DNA from: Lindgomyces ingoldianus
Lineage: Eukaryota > Ascomycota > Dothideomycetes > Pleosporales > Lindgomycetaceae
Length of the DNA: 64,000 bases
Assembly: GCF_010093535.1 (NCBI RefSeq)
Contig: NW_022985185.1
Span: 739,256-803,255, forward strand
Direction: 5' to 3'
Shown: positions 28,733 to 38,890 of the stretch, in pieces
Position numbering within the stretch: the first letter of the stretch is position 1
Layout: every line of letters begins with the position of its first letter
Program-made: the position numbers and the translations under genes
Notes under the pieces: model-generated
Databases searched by the model: none
Told to the model about the DNA's origin: nothing
The model's input: the letters and a program-made list of their open reading frames with translations, nothing else

Positions 28733-31588
28733 ATGACTTCGTTTGTGCCTCCAATTATCTCTCCTGTCCTGAAAGAAGCAGCCGAGCTTAAAATTGAGGA
28801 GCTCAACCGTGTGAAAACGTCCTTTAAGAGCCGTTATTATGCCAACCCTAACATTCTCGCCGCTGGGCCGGATACGCTCAAGCGAGTAGACGCTCTCCTC
28901 GAAGAGATCAAAAAGCTCGACCCATATCTTGAGAACGACGACGATCTTGCAAGGCTAGCCCGCTACGTCGAGCAGGGAAAGAACGACCGCTCCATTTCAC
29001 AAGCCAAGCTTCAGAAGCTTGAGAAGCAGCTGTTGGATAAGTTGGCCATTCATGCTCACCGGCTCGATGTCTCGTCTCTGCACGTCGATCTACTGAGAGA
29101 AGCCATGTACCCGAACGACTCCCCTGAAGCAGTCTCCGCAAAGTTGGAGAAGGCCACAATGGAAGATGAATTCGAATTCCTCGAGGAGGGCGAGCTCGAA
29201 ACGGCTTTCGAGAAATTTGAGAAGAATACGTTCGCATCAAAGCAGGTCGATGTCGAAGCTCTCGAGAAGTATCTGTCCGGCCTGTTCCAAGATAACGGAG
29301 GTAATCAAGCCCTCGAAAGACTCCGTGAGGACATTGGAGACTATGGAGACGATGTTATGAACGGACCAGACGAACTAGACGATGAGACGCTCGAGTGGTG
29401 CATTAACGATTTAATTCATAATGGCTTACTCAGCGATGAGAGGAGGAAAACTCTTCAAGGCTACTTACAGTCACCTATAGTTCTTCGTGAACTAAAAAGC
29501 ACTCTCAACGCGAAATCGATCCGGCATTGGACATGGCGGAACGTAGACAAAGGATTACCAGTCACTGCTCGCAAGAATTCGGAAGGAAATTACTGCATCA
29601 CTGTGGAAGAGGAGATCATCGATATGCTCTTTCTCCATACTCTTGCAATTGGGTGGAGCTGCAAGCTCAGGGGCTCTCTTAAAGATTTGGTCTCAAATCC
29701 CTGTGTCTGGGTTCGCAGCATTGGGCCATTACCTAGTGAGATGAACAAACGCGAATATTATCTGCTCCCAACCAAGGTGCCTAAGAGGGCGCCAGCGCCG
29801 AGGCCATCTGTTTGTACAGTGTGCCATCCTCCACCCCCACCTCCTGGTCCTCCCCCACCACCGATGAACTATGGACCACCTCCGCAAATTATTTGCCCTC
29901 CGCCCCCGCCGCCTCCTTTCCTGAAAGCAAAGAAGAAAAAGAAGAATAGCAGCTATCCCCCCCCGCCGCCCTTCCCTATGTACGGCCAAATCCTTAATGA
30001 GGAACGATACAGGAACTTTTCGAAACATTTCTTCCTTACTCGTCTCCCCGACCGCGATGGGAGTACGCTAGGTGTCACCCCTGTTCAAGAGACTCAGTCG
30101 GAATTGATCAAGCACTTGGCAACCGAACTCAAAGTACGCGAAGCACTTTATGGCGACGTAAACATCTTCTCGACAAACTTTGAATCTTTTGGCTCGTCTC
30201 TGCCGCACCAGACGATCCTCGCCCTCCTGAAGTTCATTGGCGTGCCAAAGCTCTGGCTTGAAGTCTTCACTCGTTTCCTTGAGGCGCCCTTGAACATGGG
30301 TCCCGTAGTCCGAGGGACTTCAGACCAGATATTGACCCGCACTTGCGGCGTACCTGTCTCCCACGGCATGGAGCTGTTCTTCGGTGAACTCACTCTCTTC
30401 TTCCTTGACTTTGCCATCCACCAAAAAACTGGTGCATACCTGTATCGTCTTCGTGACAGATGCTATTTCGTTGGCAAGTCTGAGCAATGCAAAATGGCTG
30501 AAGAGGCCTTCTTCAAATTTGAAACTGTCACGGGACTGAGGTCGGGTCCGAGTGGCTTGATGTACGGCGCCAAGGTTGGCTTCCTTGATTTCCCTCCGGT
30601 CAATCATGCCCCTGTCACCATCAACATTGATAATCACAAAGTTGAGGCATATGCTCGTCGGGTCAAGAAGCAATTGACAGCCTGCACCACTGTCGTTGAT
30701 TGGATTCGTACTTGGAACAGCACTATTGGTACTTATGCAGATGACAAGTTTGGTCCTCTTGCGAACGTCTTTGGAAAACATCATCTTGATGCCGTTATGG
30801 GAGCATATAATCGCATCCATGAGATAATCTTCGAAAGAAGCAACCTCACCGATCATGTCAAACAACTCCTTTCTAGACATATCCGCCCAACTCTCCAAGA
30901 CCCACCGTTCGCTCTCGAACCGCTCATTTTCCTGCCTACAGCCTATGGCGGTCTCGGCGTCAAGAACCCATACATCACATTGAACCTCGCAAAGTCTATT
31001 GCGGAGAACCCAGGGGAGGGACTCAACGAATACATCAAATCAGAGGATGAATACTACAACAAGGCCAAGGAGACGTTTACTGGCCTGAAGGCTGATGCAC
31101 GCGACCGCAAACTGAATGTCATCTTTGGTGATGATAAAGAGCGCATAGCTTTTTGCTTGGGCGACAGGGACCCCTCTGTCTTCATGTCTAAAGATGAGCT
31201 CACTGCCCATCGGGAGGATTTTCCTTATCCTACCCTCCCGCACCACACTTTCCCCTCTCCGGTCCCCTTCACCTACACGCCAACACCTGCGATTACTCCA
31301 GTGTACAACTCGCTTCTAGATGAGCCAAGAGATGAAATCAACCCAAGTGAGCGGATTGATGATGAGACTAGAAGACTGAGCGGAAGAGACGGCATGAAGA
31401 ATTGGTGGAGGATGTGTGGGGAGGACAGGTGGGTGGTGGAGCTGTATGGGGAGGAGTGTTTTGAAAGGTATGGTGGTTTGGAGCTCTGGCATGGAGATTA
31501 TGTGCCATTAGAGGTGGTGAAGATGGTGCGGGGAGAAGATGGAGATGTGGATGATGATGGGAGTACGAGTTCTTATAGTCTCCCCTGA
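28733..31588 (+). CDS. rvt: rvt-type reverse-transcriptase-related cellular protein with altered catalytic residues
   Basis: Intronless, 951 aa. From memory of the fungal rvt family (single-copy domesticated reverse transcriptases), these parts match: an N-terminal helical, charged region; a segment around LQSPIVLRELKSTLNAKS and HWTWRNVDKGLPVTARKNSE; then an RT-like core. Motif A corresponds to TNFESFGSSLPHQTI, where the expected Asp is Asn482. Motif B is CGVPVSHGMELFFGE. Motif C is LYRLRDRCYFVG, where the expected HDD reads RDR (Asp575 kept, the second Asp is Arg576). HIRPTLQDPP and YGGLGVKNP lie in the thumb/C-terminal part. A Pro-rich, Lys-containing insert occupies about residues 365-425. 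There is no endonuclease, RNase H, integrase or terminal repeat, so it is not a retroelement. The long undamaged frame argues for selection on a non-catalytic or altered role. Family assignment is likely; loss of polymerase activity is inference. Confidence 0.72.
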   Translation: MTSFVPPIISPVLKEAAELKIEELNRVKTSFKSRYYANPNILAAGPDTLKRVDALLEEIKKLDPYLENDDDLARLARYVEQGKNDRSISQAKLQKLEKQLLDKLAIHAHRLDVSSLHVDLLREAMYPNDSPEAVSAKLEKATMEDEFEFLEEGELETAFEKFEKNTFASKQVDVEALEKYLSGLFQDNGGNQALERLREDIGDYGDDVMNGPDELDDETLEWCINDLIHNGLLSDERRKTLQGYLQSPIVLRELKSTLNAKSIRHWTWRNVDKGLPVTARKNSEGNYCITVEEEIIDMLFLHTLAIGWSCKLRGSLKDLVSNPCVWVRSIGPLPSEMNKREYYLLPTKVPKRAPAPRPSVCTVCHPPPPPPGPPPPPMNYGPPPQIICPPPPPPPFLKAKKKKKNSSYPPPPPFPMYGQILNEERYRNFSKHFFLTRLPDRDGSTLGVTPVQETQSELIKHLATELKVREALYGDVNIFSTNFESFGSSLPHQTILALLKFIGVPKLWLEVFTRFLEAPLNMGPVVRGTSDQILTRTCGVPVSHGMELFFGELTLFFLDFAIHQKTGAYLYRLRDRCYFVGKSEQCKMAEEAFFKFETVTGLRSGPSGLMYGAKVGFLDFPPVNHAPVTINIDNHKVEAYARRVKKQLTACTTVVDWIRTWNSTIGTYADDKFGPLANVFGKHHLDAVMGAYNRIHEIIFERSNLTDHVKQLLSRHIRPTLQDPPFALEPLIFLPTAYGGLGVKNPYITLNLAKSIAENPGEGLNEYIKSEDEYYNKAKETFTGLKADARDRKLNVIFGDDKERIAFCLGDRDPSVFMSKDELTAHREDFPYPTLPHHTFPSPVPFTYTPTPAITPVYNSLLDEPRDEINPSERIDDETRRLSGRDGMKNWWRMCGEDRWVVELYGEECFERYGGLELWHGDYVPLEVVKMVRGEDGDVDDDGSTSSYSLP

Positions 31589-34377: not shown

Positions 34378-37300
34378 CTACTCTCGCTTGCTGTCGGAGT
34401 CTACTGACACATTTCTATTGGATTCAACGCCGTTGAAGACGATGGCGGCTGCGGTCGGAACTAGAGCTGGTGCTGGGACAGGTGTGGGGACCAAAGTTGC
34501 CTCAGTCGCTACTTCGGCTTGGGCCAGAGTTGGTTTAGATGCAGGTGCAACACCACGCTTGGGTGCTTGTTCATCCGGTGCAGAGAAAAAGCGATCGAGG
34601 AGCAGTCGTGGGTATCGGCGGAACTTGATGCCACCCACCATTCCAATGATCACGCCGTCCGGAAGGATGTACGCATCACCCAAGTAAATAGCAGGGTCTT
34701 CTGCAGCGGGTATCATCTTAATAGAAGCGGTACTTGTTTCCAGCAACGAGTGGGCGGGCAAAACGCATTGAGCTCCAACCAGGCGTGACGCAGAAGTTCG
34801 TTTTAGTATCGACCGTGCCGGATACATCTATAATGAAACCGGCGAGATGTGCGACGCTGTCAATAAATTAGGGTGTGATAGTCCAAGTACCTCCTTTTTC
34901 CGTCGTCAGCTTCACATCGGCAAAGGCCTCCAATTCGTGAAGAACAGCGGATTGCATGCCACGATATTTGCCAGCATAATCGACAAGACTGTTGGCAAAG
35001 AGACGATACGCCATGTTGCGAGAGAATCGATCAGCAACTCCTTCAGCGAGGCGTTGGATGGCCTCGATACGGCTCTGGACGAGATGAGTGATGAGAACCC
35101 AGGATGCGAGCCATTCTGATGTGTCGCCATAGTACAGGTTGGCGCTTGCGAAAGGATCGTCAATGGTACCATTGGGTTAGATGCTATGCCACCGGAGATG
35201 AACAAGGCCTGAGTGAATATCCGGGGTCGCAGCAGAAACTTGGATTACCTGAGGCGTTTTCGTATTATCTTTCGCGACGATGCCTTTGAGAACTTCCAAG
35301 TTGGCTACGTTCATGGCTACGTCTTTGACATTTGGCATGAGCTTCTTGTAGAGGTATTCCCCCAAGGTAAATGCGATGTCCGCATGAATTGACCGCCCAA
35401 AATGTAAGTCTAACTTTGCGGTAGACGTGTTGGTTAAGGTAACTTACCGAGGTGATAACACCACATCCATTCATTTTGTGCCCATGGGCCGCAGCGAGGA
35501 AGTCTGGTTGTATCAAATCCCCTTGCATGACTACTTTCCCTGCCAGTCCTTGGAATGTTTCTTCTACAATCTGCTGAACCGTTGAGGTTCTCAGACTGGA
35601 GTGCGAAGCAGGCACAAGTGCTTTTTGTGTTAGCCCCTTTTCGGCGTCGTAGAAATCGTCGCCTTTCGTGAGAGCCTAGTCTCCCTAGTACTAAAGCCAG
35701 TAGTTTTGTTCATTCCAACATAAGTAGGCAGGCCCAGTAGTCGAAGCTCCCCCTCAAAAGGTCGGTGGAATTCACTCCAGCCTAGCTGCACCCCTGCGCA
35801 GTGCAAGGCTCCAAGACTTTGCGCTATCGTGACCCAATTATTTTTTCCCCGGCGAATCGATGGGATGGAGATGTTGACAGACGGCAGAGTGGCCTTAACG
35901 AAACCCATGCAGACGGGATGAGGCCCAATTTCGACCCAAGTAGTTGCATCATCGATAGTTCCGATTCGCTGTGCTATCTCCAGCGCTGCAAGGAAATTAA
36001 CTGGTTCCCGCGTGGCACGTCTCAAGTAGCTCGCGTTTACCGTTTTGTCGTCAAAGATGACTTTGCTTAGCAGCGGTGTTATGACGGGCATATTCGGGGC
36101 ATGGAAGTGAACACCAGACTTTGCAACATCCTCGAAGTCGTCAAGGATTGGATCTGTTTGTGACGAGTGGAATGCAAAAGGTATATCCAAGCTAAAGCAT
36201 TCGTAACCATCCGCTTGGAGAGGTTCCACCAGTGCATCGATTTGCTCCACGGTCCCACTGAGCACCGTTTCCTTTGGCCCATTGATGCACGCGACTTCGT
36301 ATGGCCTTTCCCCAGCATTTTGGTCGGTTTCATTAAGTGAGGCCCTCACAGCCATCATCTTGTGGCTCCCAATCTTGCAGTTCTCTTCGAGCATCTTAGC
36401 TCTTTGTCCTACGAGGAAAATGGCATCGCTGGCTGAAAGCATGCCCGCAACATGCAAGGCAGTATACTCTCCAAGGCTGTGTCCGATTACAACATTTGGC
36501 TTGACGCCCAAAGAAGTCCAGTACTTAGTAAGCGCAATTTCAACACAGACAAGAGCAAGTTGGGTGACGCTGGTGAATGTGCATGCTCTTTCAGATGGCT
36601 TCCGTCAATTGCTGGAACGATGGTGGGAAACCCTTGACCTTGAGCGAGAGAATCTAAGTGAAGGATCTGCGATCAGAAGTAAGGCGAATTGTGATACAAC
36701 TCTAAGTTGCTTGACTTGTAAGACGATCCCTGGTCTATGAAAGCGAACGCGACTGAAGGTGGTCTAGCGGTAGGAATTGGCTTGTGAGAATTGACTGAGT
36801 GGAGGTCTGAAGTGAGCTGCTTTGTTATTTGGGTCACTTCAGAAGCTGCTACTGCCACTCGATGATTGTGGTGATGGCGACGTGCCGTGGTCGAGTAGAA
36901 GAGGTTTGACAGTGAAATATCCGAATTAGCATCCAAATAACCAATCATATGCTCTAAGTGGCCCTTCAACTATATCTTACTCTTAGCGGAGACTGCAATA
37001 ACATGGGTGGTGCGAGGGTCAATTTGGTTGACGTCCCGAATTGGCCCTTCTTGAATCGCAATCGATGTGTTCCCACCCGCTGCGCTGAGATTGTTCACAA
37101 AAGCAATTCGCTTTCTGCCAGAAACACGAGGCCAATGTTGTTTCTCGTATGGAATGCGAAGGTTGCGCTTGTTTAGATCCTTGGGAAACTCTGGATTGAT
37201 GCTGTTCCTAATGCCGACATGAGGCGGAATGAGGCTTTTCTGGAACACGAGGAGAACCTTGAGCAATGCCGTCACCCCAGTTACAGTCCCTCCATGACCA

Positions 37301-38890
37301 ACATTCGCTTTGACTGTCCCAATGTAAAGCGGATACTTTTGACTACGACGCCTCACGGCAGGTGCGAAGACATCACTGACGGACTGCAACTCCTCGTGGT
37401 GGCCAGCCTGCGTGCCAGTCCCATACATTTCCACGAAGCTGACATCGAGCGGATCTACTCCCGCATAACTCAAGACTTTCCTTTCTAGGTAAGATTGAGC
37501 ACCAGCATGCGGATGTGCAATAGAGATCGCGTCTGGTGAATGGTTTGTTCTAGCTTCGAGGATTATACTAAGAATATTATTATTATCGGCTTCAGCATCT
37601 TTGAGGCGCTTCATCACGATAGACCCAATTCCGTCGGCGCGACAGTATCTATCGGCTTCGCAATCCCAAGTCTTACATTCGCTAGGGGTCTTGGAGAGGA
37701 AGTGGCTATGGCTGAGACCGTTGAAAGCATCAGAATTCGTGAGGACATTCATTCCTCCCGCCACCACCGTGTCACAGGCGCCGTTCCAGAGGGAAGTGAA
37801 GGCAGCTTGTATCGTGGCTAGGCTAGACGAGCATGCCGTATCGATGCTGAAGCTTGGCCCAGAGAATTTGAAGAAATAGTTGATGCGTCCTGGGCCGAGC
37901 GCACGAGATCCACCTGGATTAAAGTAGGTGCTACTCTCCTAAGTGGTATTGACTTCTCGGCAGTCATCGCTAGCTTAACTATAGAACGTCCTAATGCGAT
38001 GGAGATTCGTAGCTGCGGTCTGGTTGGCAACGCAACCTGCTCTCTCAAGTGCTTCATACGCCGTCACCAAGGCAATTCTTTGCATTGGATCAGTCTGTTG
38101 CGCCTCACGAGGGGACATGTTAAAAAATGGTGCGTCGAATAAGCCAGGTTCGTCGATAAAGCAGCCGTATGGTGTGTGGTTAGCATTCACCCTTTTTCCT
38201 GTAGGATCAAAATGGGACTCGACGTCGAATCGGTCAGCTGGTATCTTTCAATGCACATCCAGCTCTTGCTCCAGGAGGTCCCAGAATTTCTCCGTGTCTT
38301 TCCCTCCTCCGGGCATCCGACATGACATTCCCACGATTACAATTTTGGGCTGCGCAAAGCCTCTCGGCCCCCACCCATCGTTGTTCTTATCAGAGATCCA
38401 TGGAACTAGCTCCTGTGTCCTGGCCTCTAACCCTGGGAGTTCCACTTGGAAGAAAGAGATAAGATCATGGACTGGAAGAGAGATTCTGAAGACAAGCACT
38501 TCGCATTCGGAGGCTGCAATCTCGCTGACTCGTTGAACCACGCCCTGCACCACGCCGTTCCATTCAATCTTTGGGGTCAATATTTCTGAAATGATGGCCT
38601 CGAAAATTCCCCTCACGTTATTAACTAAGAAAGGCCTCCCGGTACTCGTTGAGAAAATTGGTATCCGTGGAGACAGCTCAGAGTTCAACGCTTCCGTTGA
38701 GCTCGTCTGGACAATGGTTTGAACGTTTTCATCATTGTAGATGTGCTTTGCGTGGCATAAGCCTCCATACACAGGCAAGGATACGTGTTTGCGATCCCGA
38801 AAGAAATCTGAATGGAGAAAGATGCTCTTGAGTCTTAAAGGAGGCCCAATAGTCAATCCAGAAGCTCTGAAGGCAAAGGCAAAACATTTC
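34378..38890 (-). pseudogene. non-reducing polyketide synthase relic (DHN-melanin PKS type; partial SAT-KS-AT-PT)
   Basis: Remains of a pigment-type iterative type I PKS. Reading from 38890 down: a SAT C-terminal part, KS, AT and PT remnants, then a Pro/Ala-rich linker. KS motifs are IVGMSCRMPGG near 38330, [14 protein letters not shown] near 38100, DTACSSS near 37831 and NVGHGG. AT carries [11 protein letters not shown] near 36460. ACP and TE are absent, and about the first 200 residues of SAT are missing. In-frame stops lie at 38248-38250 (TGA), 37975-37977 (TAA), 37939-37941 (TAG) and 36970-36972 (TAG). Frameshifts affect the AT start, the AT end and the PT part. The KS active-site His is Tyr at 37423-37425 ([10 protein letters not shown]), and the AT FTGQG box reads FIDQG. 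Close wording with melanin/conidial-pigment PKS proteins supports the family. It cannot make product. Confidence 0.88.

Follow-up and report, generated by a model that had tools for sequence, protein, structure and literature searches.

The rvt genes encode domesticated RT-like cellular proteins. RVT of N. crassa reportedly polymerises NTPs and dNTPs and forms multimers. The defence reverse transcriptases (RTs) DRT2 and DRT9, which are active bacterial enzymes with ncRNA partners, are not members of rvt. The rvt proteins form a long branch marked by loop 2a, a sizeable insertion that separates motif 2 from motif 3 (PMC5718144). According to a meeting report, N. crassa RVT is dispensable for growth, is induced by a block of protein synthesis and has terminal transferase activity in vitro (PMC3520738), and rvt genes are presented elsewhere as single-copy, under purifying selection and dependent on intact catalytic residues for the relief of stress (PMC10680173). 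PMC4920403 gives the names RVT1 and RVT2 to genes that carry endonuclease or integrase domains and, despite the shared label, are not the rvt genes meant here, while the available portions of PMC10799480 and PMC12632851 hold nothing further on rvt. Here we compare with these systems a gene of Lindgomyces ingoldianus that we call rvt-B.

The rvt-B gene and its surroundings

The rvt-B gene occupies positions 28733..31588 (+) of the window, by which we mean the whole stretch of 64,000 nucleotides analysed. Its 951 codons start with ATG at 28733 and are followed by a stop codon at 31586-31588, with zero internal stops; the intact 951-aa frame reported by the initial annotation is thus uninterrupted. 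The features of the gene are as follows.

28733..31588, + strand: rvt-B gene, single open frame of 951 aa, clade B fungal rvt; the start agrees with that of the orthologue P0002, beginning MASFVPPIISPVLKEA
28763..29233, + strand: N-terminal helical region, residues 11-167 (AlphaFold2 secondary structure)
29768..30040, + strand: loop 2a region, residues 346-436, with C361-x-x-C364-H365, polyproline runs and a lysine run (alignment and AlphaFold2)
29813..29827, + strand: CTVCH motif, residues 361-365; CxxCH is present in the loop of 24 of the 37 clade B proteins, as counted from the listing
30041..31012, + strand: RT palm and thumb region, residues 437-760 (structure model; boundaries estimated)
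30164..30199, + strand: motif A, residues 478-489, IFSTNFESFGSS; Asn482, codon AAC at 30176-30178, is Asp in clade C
30338..30376, + strand: motif B region, residues 536-548, RTCGVPVSHGMEL; R536 and G539 are kept, Cys538 versus Arg in clade C
30452..30460, + strand: motif C residues 574-576, Arg-Asp-Arg versus His-Asp-Asp in clade C

There is no RIP-like bias in the gene. It is flanked by ordinary genes (MFS transporter, release factor, gamma-glutamyltranspeptidase, ketoacyl synthase and acyltransferase, chitin synthase), and no mobile element was recognised around it. The ketoacyl synthase and acyltransferase frames, at window positions 36970-37767 (-) and 35630-36511 (-), about 4 kb past the rvt gene, are probably parts of a single polyketide synthase gene.

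The genome searched comprises 68.4 Mb in 99 contigs. A search with the window protein (P0001) revealed one clade B locus and one paralogue. Hmmscan of P0001 with E values up to 10 produced no match to a Pfam RT domain, and Pfam detected no endonuclease domain in it; with ten other members scanned against Pfam, sub-threshold RVT_1 matches were found only in P0041, P0038 and P0240. The genome also yielded 150 scored RVT_1 matches, most of them with TAA and TAG stops and few with TGA, a pattern consistent with RIP-mutated retrotransposons.

Homologues of rvt-B form one of three clades

A homologue search with the window protein returned 40 proteins at E ≤ 0.001 among 7994 scored candidates sharing most words. 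Three of these are distant, and the remaining 37, including the window protein, form a close group, clade B. The 36 relatives are 38-62% identical to the window protein, and lengths in the clade range from 894 to 1006 aa. A species name is carried by 19 of the 37 proteins; the named ones are Dothideomycetes, mostly, as we take them to be, Pleosporales. Taxonomy was looked up for four of the genera: Lindgomyces and Lojkania belong to Pleosporales, Lepidopterella to Mytilinidiales, and Zopfia to Dothideomycetes of uncertain place.

Two further searches, started with the paralogue P0041 and with a Cadophora protein, contributed the best 120 of 770 and the best 120 of 791 matches, respectively. 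After P0057, P0172, P0221 and P0248 had been dropped for length from the 278 proteins collected, 274 were aligned. They split into clade B (37 proteins), clade A, which contains the paralogue (120), and the canonical fungal clade C (117), whose named members are presumably Leotiomycetes and Sordariomycetes. In a 93-row tree every clade is separated from the rest by a branch with SH-aLRT of 99-100, and in a 36-row mixture-model tree clades A and B each have support of 100/100 and clade C of 93/96. A bacterial rvt outgroup was sought in two scans of genome contigs, of whose 148 and 110 pattern matches 0 were confirmed; since no outgroup was found, the order of the three clades is unrooted.

Clade B is 24-29% identical to clades A and C, with homology along the whole length. 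From the features of these proteins and the presence of the Sordariales members Chaetomium and Thermothielavioides we infer that clades A-C are the published rvt family. N. crassa RVT itself is absent among the matches listed and would belong to clade C. Two clade C proteins, P0206 and P0210, are filed under the liverwort Calypogeia fissa; they are 55% and 53% identical to the Cadophora protein and both lie on a contig of 8,945,542, and a fungal contaminant or horizontal transfer is suggested.

Fold and motif placement

AlphaFold2 predicts a confident RT fold for the window protein (pLDDT 88.5), the nearest solved folds being R2 and LINE-1. Loop 2a is modelled at lower confidence, with block means of 52-72 over residues 351-420. 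In the model, strand 477-481 adjoins residue 482, and a hairpin (570-573 / 576-581) has RDR at its turn, as motifs A and C predict. The structure prediction that had been suggested as a check of the RT assignment bears it out, and puts the altered residues at the end of the motif A strand and at the motif C turn.

Profile comparison matched rvt to the solved RT DRT9 (9ioa) with E of 4.9e-4 when clade C was used and 4.1e-6 when all three clades were used. The matches span motifs B, C and D and stop short of motif A; the rvt 'hDD' falls on the DRT9 'aDD'. Alignment of the rvt cores by hhalign with two LTR-type RT frames from the genome gave no useful result. Motif A was placed by clade C conservation, spacing and the structure model. 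The window protein thus shows an RT fold in which motifs A to C are recognisable by position and altered in residues.

Catalytic residues are lost throughout clade B

The complete D/DD triad is present in 115 of 117 clade C proteins, in 0 of 37 from clade B and in 0 of 120 from clade A. Column 482 is Asp in 116/117 C, 6/37 B and 0/120 A proteins, so Asn482 (codon AAC) of the window protein does stand where the motif A Asp is expected, as the initial annotation had it. The same holds for its reading of motif C as Arg-Asp-Arg (574-576) instead of HDD, the columns being H, D and D in 117, 116 and 117 of the 117 clade C proteins. The first Asp of motif C is present in 116/117 C, 25/37 B and 116/120 A proteins, and the second in 117/117 C, 1/37 B and 109/120 A; both occur together in 116/117 C, 0/37 B and 107/120 A. 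The first of them, D575, is kept in the window protein and in 25 of the 37 clade B members. Acids fill all three triad places in 115 C proteins, 12 A proteins and a single B protein, the early-branching P0002, which reads D/DE and is near canonical. The motif D Lys, counted at ungapped offset, is found in 117/117 C, 114/120 A and 4/37 B proteins and is lost in the window protein; the alignment column gave Lys in 0/37 of clade B, but this stretch is gappy and the ungapped-offset count was therefore used.

In clade B the former catalytic columns rank at percentiles 82, 62 and 78 of RT-core variability, compared to 12-19 in clade C. Free variation at catalytic positions would be unexpected in a two-metal polymerase, and ordinary catalysis has therefore likely been lost in clade B; to judge from its sequence, the window protein is very probably devoid of it. 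With the triad found in 0/37 proteins, we place clade B beside the rvt proteins as a non-catalytic sister clade and do not count it among the rvt enzymes.

In clade B the RT motifs show no significant excess of losses (17 of 25 conserved motif columns versus 81 of 147 others, Fisher p = 0.28; 8 of 10 versus 90 of 162 with a strict motif set, p = 0.19), and general divergence thus accounts for much. For clade A, the wide set gave 10 of 25 lost motif columns versus 24 of 147 others (p = 0.012), and the strict set was not significant (p = 0.11).

The second rvt of the genome belongs to clade A

The sole other rvt locus found in the genome lies at C19:1084486-1087149 (searches with P0001 and, at E up to 10, with P0038 of clade C). 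The paralogue P0041 is a 982-aa frame, L010:1474-4422 (-), that reads Val531 in motif A and Y621-D-D in motif C, and is identical to Lindgomyces ingoldianus protein BDR25DRAFT_304295. An active HDD paralogue in the same genome was considered and rejected, as neither search matched any locus besides that of clade A and the window gene itself. The second, HDD-bearing rvt that the initial annotation had proposed did not materialise: the only other rvt reads Val531 / YDD, and with Val at its motif A a regulator of an active HDD rvt is left here without such a partner. Two rvts found in one genome, neither with the full triad, argue against rvt function always needing nucleotide polymerisation.

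Position 484, two residues past the lost Asp, is an acid in 109/120 clade A proteins and mostly Lys in clade C (92/117). A relocation of the clade A metal ligand from 482 to 484 is possible, and the alignment is suggestive of it. The clade A model P0057 of Ophiobolus disseminans has 1568 aa and extra Pfam domains, and the clade A protein P0075 of Ascochyta lentis is named glucosylceramidase; together, the extra domains and the name suggest a common neighbour of the clade A gene.

A histone H3-like tail in clade A

The N-terminal tail of histone H3 is copied almost exactly in loop 2a of clade A proteins, for example P0150, P0131, P0160, P0148 and P0111. Local alignment with the H3 tail scored at least 60 in 51/120 A proteins, in 0/37 B (best 36) and in 0/117 C (best 40); in the control, one shuffle per A protein, the best score was 41. 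STGGKAPR occurs in 20/120 A loops versus 0.0 per shuffled set, and QTAR in 60/120 versus 0.31, as well as in 1/117 C. In P0041 the tail is degenerate, with only RAKQTRA left. A limited literature search, covering titles and the beginnings of abstracts, found no description of an H3-tail copy in rvt. If functional, the tail would point to chromatin. One could picture a two-protein, chromatin-linked rvt system without a canonical polymerase, in which the H3 tail copy of A would serve histone writers or readers (H3K4, H3K9 or H3K27 type), B would be a dead partner with a CxxCH/polyproline docking loop, and the two together would tie RNA binding by the RT fold to heterochromatin, with no cDNA made; we consider this picture speculative and improbable.

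Constraint and specific features of clade B

Constraint on clade B was judged from proteins alone; a scan of viral contigs with the clade B alignment for orthologous DNA gave 29 pattern matches, 0 of them confirmed. In nine species (36 pairs), B proteins are 35-64% identical over well-filled columns and diverge at 1.66-2.47 times the A rate, with a median of 2.1; A and B are both listed for ten species, of which Ophiobolus was left aside since its A row had been dropped. At the protein level the divergence of clade B is far from free drift, and protein conservation in 37 members argues for purifying selection. H492, G539 and E552 are invariant in 37/37 clade B proteins.

Loop 2a contains CxxC in 27/37 B, 0/120 A and 0/117 C proteins in the stretches scanned, and is proline-dense in most clade B proteins. 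The median length of its alignment span is 104 residues in B, 123 in A and 51 in C. Over the span 437-760 mean net charge is +1.2 for clade B, against -14.3 for A and -6.4 for C; over the span 169-345 the respective values are -9.4, +1.1 and +2.1.

Possible role of rvt-B

An RT fold without the triad, in a frame kept across the clade, makes a role outside polymerisation the simplest reading. This much of the non-polymerase role put forward by the initial annotation stands, while the active HDD partner that it allowed for was found by neither search of the genome. We infer, with a probability of roughly 0.6, that rvt-B is a pseudo-polymerase that most likely serves an rvt assembly or RNA-protein complex as a structural or regulatory subunit. 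Clade B would have kept the RT fold and lost the residues of two-metal catalysis, and the protein would have been retained in many Dothideomycetes. Its RT body may provide a docking surface for nucleic acid or protein, and loop 2a, with CxxCH and polyproline, may act as a partner-recruiting arm, an explanation tempered by the lack of CxxC in the loop of 10/37 clade B proteins.

A direct partnership of rvt-B with the clade A rvt is perhaps conceivable, and we hold it to be doubtful. Of 20 species (19 named and this genome), 10 have both A and B among the matches listed, the A list holding the best 120 of 770. For many species with A, for example Alternaria, Pyrenophora and Bipolaris, there was no clade B match among the 7994 scored candidates; should this absence be real, A can do without B.

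The RT part could instead be a passive remnant kept for folding, the selected function residing in the N-terminal helical region or in loop 2a. The RT core is indeed more variable in B (median column entropy 1.41) than in A (1.03) or C (1.18), and CxxCH and polyproline are specific to B. However, the N-terminal blocks of clade B vary about as much as the RT core, or more, and 21 of the 32 columns invariant among the 37 proteins fall in residues 437-760, which makes this alternative unlikely.

It is also rather unlikely that rvt-B remains an enzyme whose active site has been rebuilt, where D575 and a neighbouring acid such as E484, or a single metal, would give terminal-transferase-like addition. 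D575 is present in 25/37 clade B proteins and an acid at 482 or 484 in 19/37; clade A has an acid at 484 in 109/120 and both motif C Asp in 107/120, and N. crassa RVT is credited with terminal transferase activity in the meeting report (PMC3520738). Yet position 484 is at the 93rd percentile of variability in clade B, residue 576 is Lys or Arg in 22/37, and the motif D Lys is found in 4/37.

A decaying gene, caught as a pseudogene before its first stop codon, would fit the faster evolution relative to clade A and the lost catalytic residues, but is very improbable given that 37 proteins from 19 named species, this genome and unnamed sources can be aligned, at lengths of 894-1006 aa and with 38-62% identity to the window protein, and that the gene has neither a stop nor RIP-like bias. 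A retrotransposon fragment is scarcely credible: the RT fold and the structural neighbours R2 and LINE-1 are set against a single clade B locus, stops in most of the scored RVT_1 matches of the genome, no Pfam RT match, 24-29% identity to the rvt-type clades A and C, and ordinary flanking genes.

With rvt-B read as a pseudo-polymerase, a clade that keeps the RT body across many genera after loss of the triad separates the importance of the body from that of polymerisation, and clade B is a natural catalytic-dead control.

Comparison with known systems

Like the rvt genes for which N. crassa RVT is the reference, rvt-B has an RT core and a loop 2a insertion, is single-copy and has no recognised mobile element around it; its clade C kin of like architecture keep Asp and HDD. 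It differs from them in that the triad is missing in all clade B proteins found and loop 2a carries CxxCH and polyproline. With clade A rvt, including P0041, it shares its architecture (28% overall identity) and the loss of the motif A Asp; in contrast, clade A keeps the motif C Asp pair (107/120) and the motif D Lys (114/120), evolves slower and has an H3-like tail in loop 2a. Unlike the non-LTR retrotransposon RTs R2 and LINE-1, which are multicopy and carry an endonuclease, rvt-B has one clade B locus and no Pfam endonuclease domain. The RT-like core of Prp8 in the spliceosome is among the closest known systems, and the best solved relatives of rvt by sequence profile are the defence RTs DRT2 and DRT9, which resemble it over motifs B to D.
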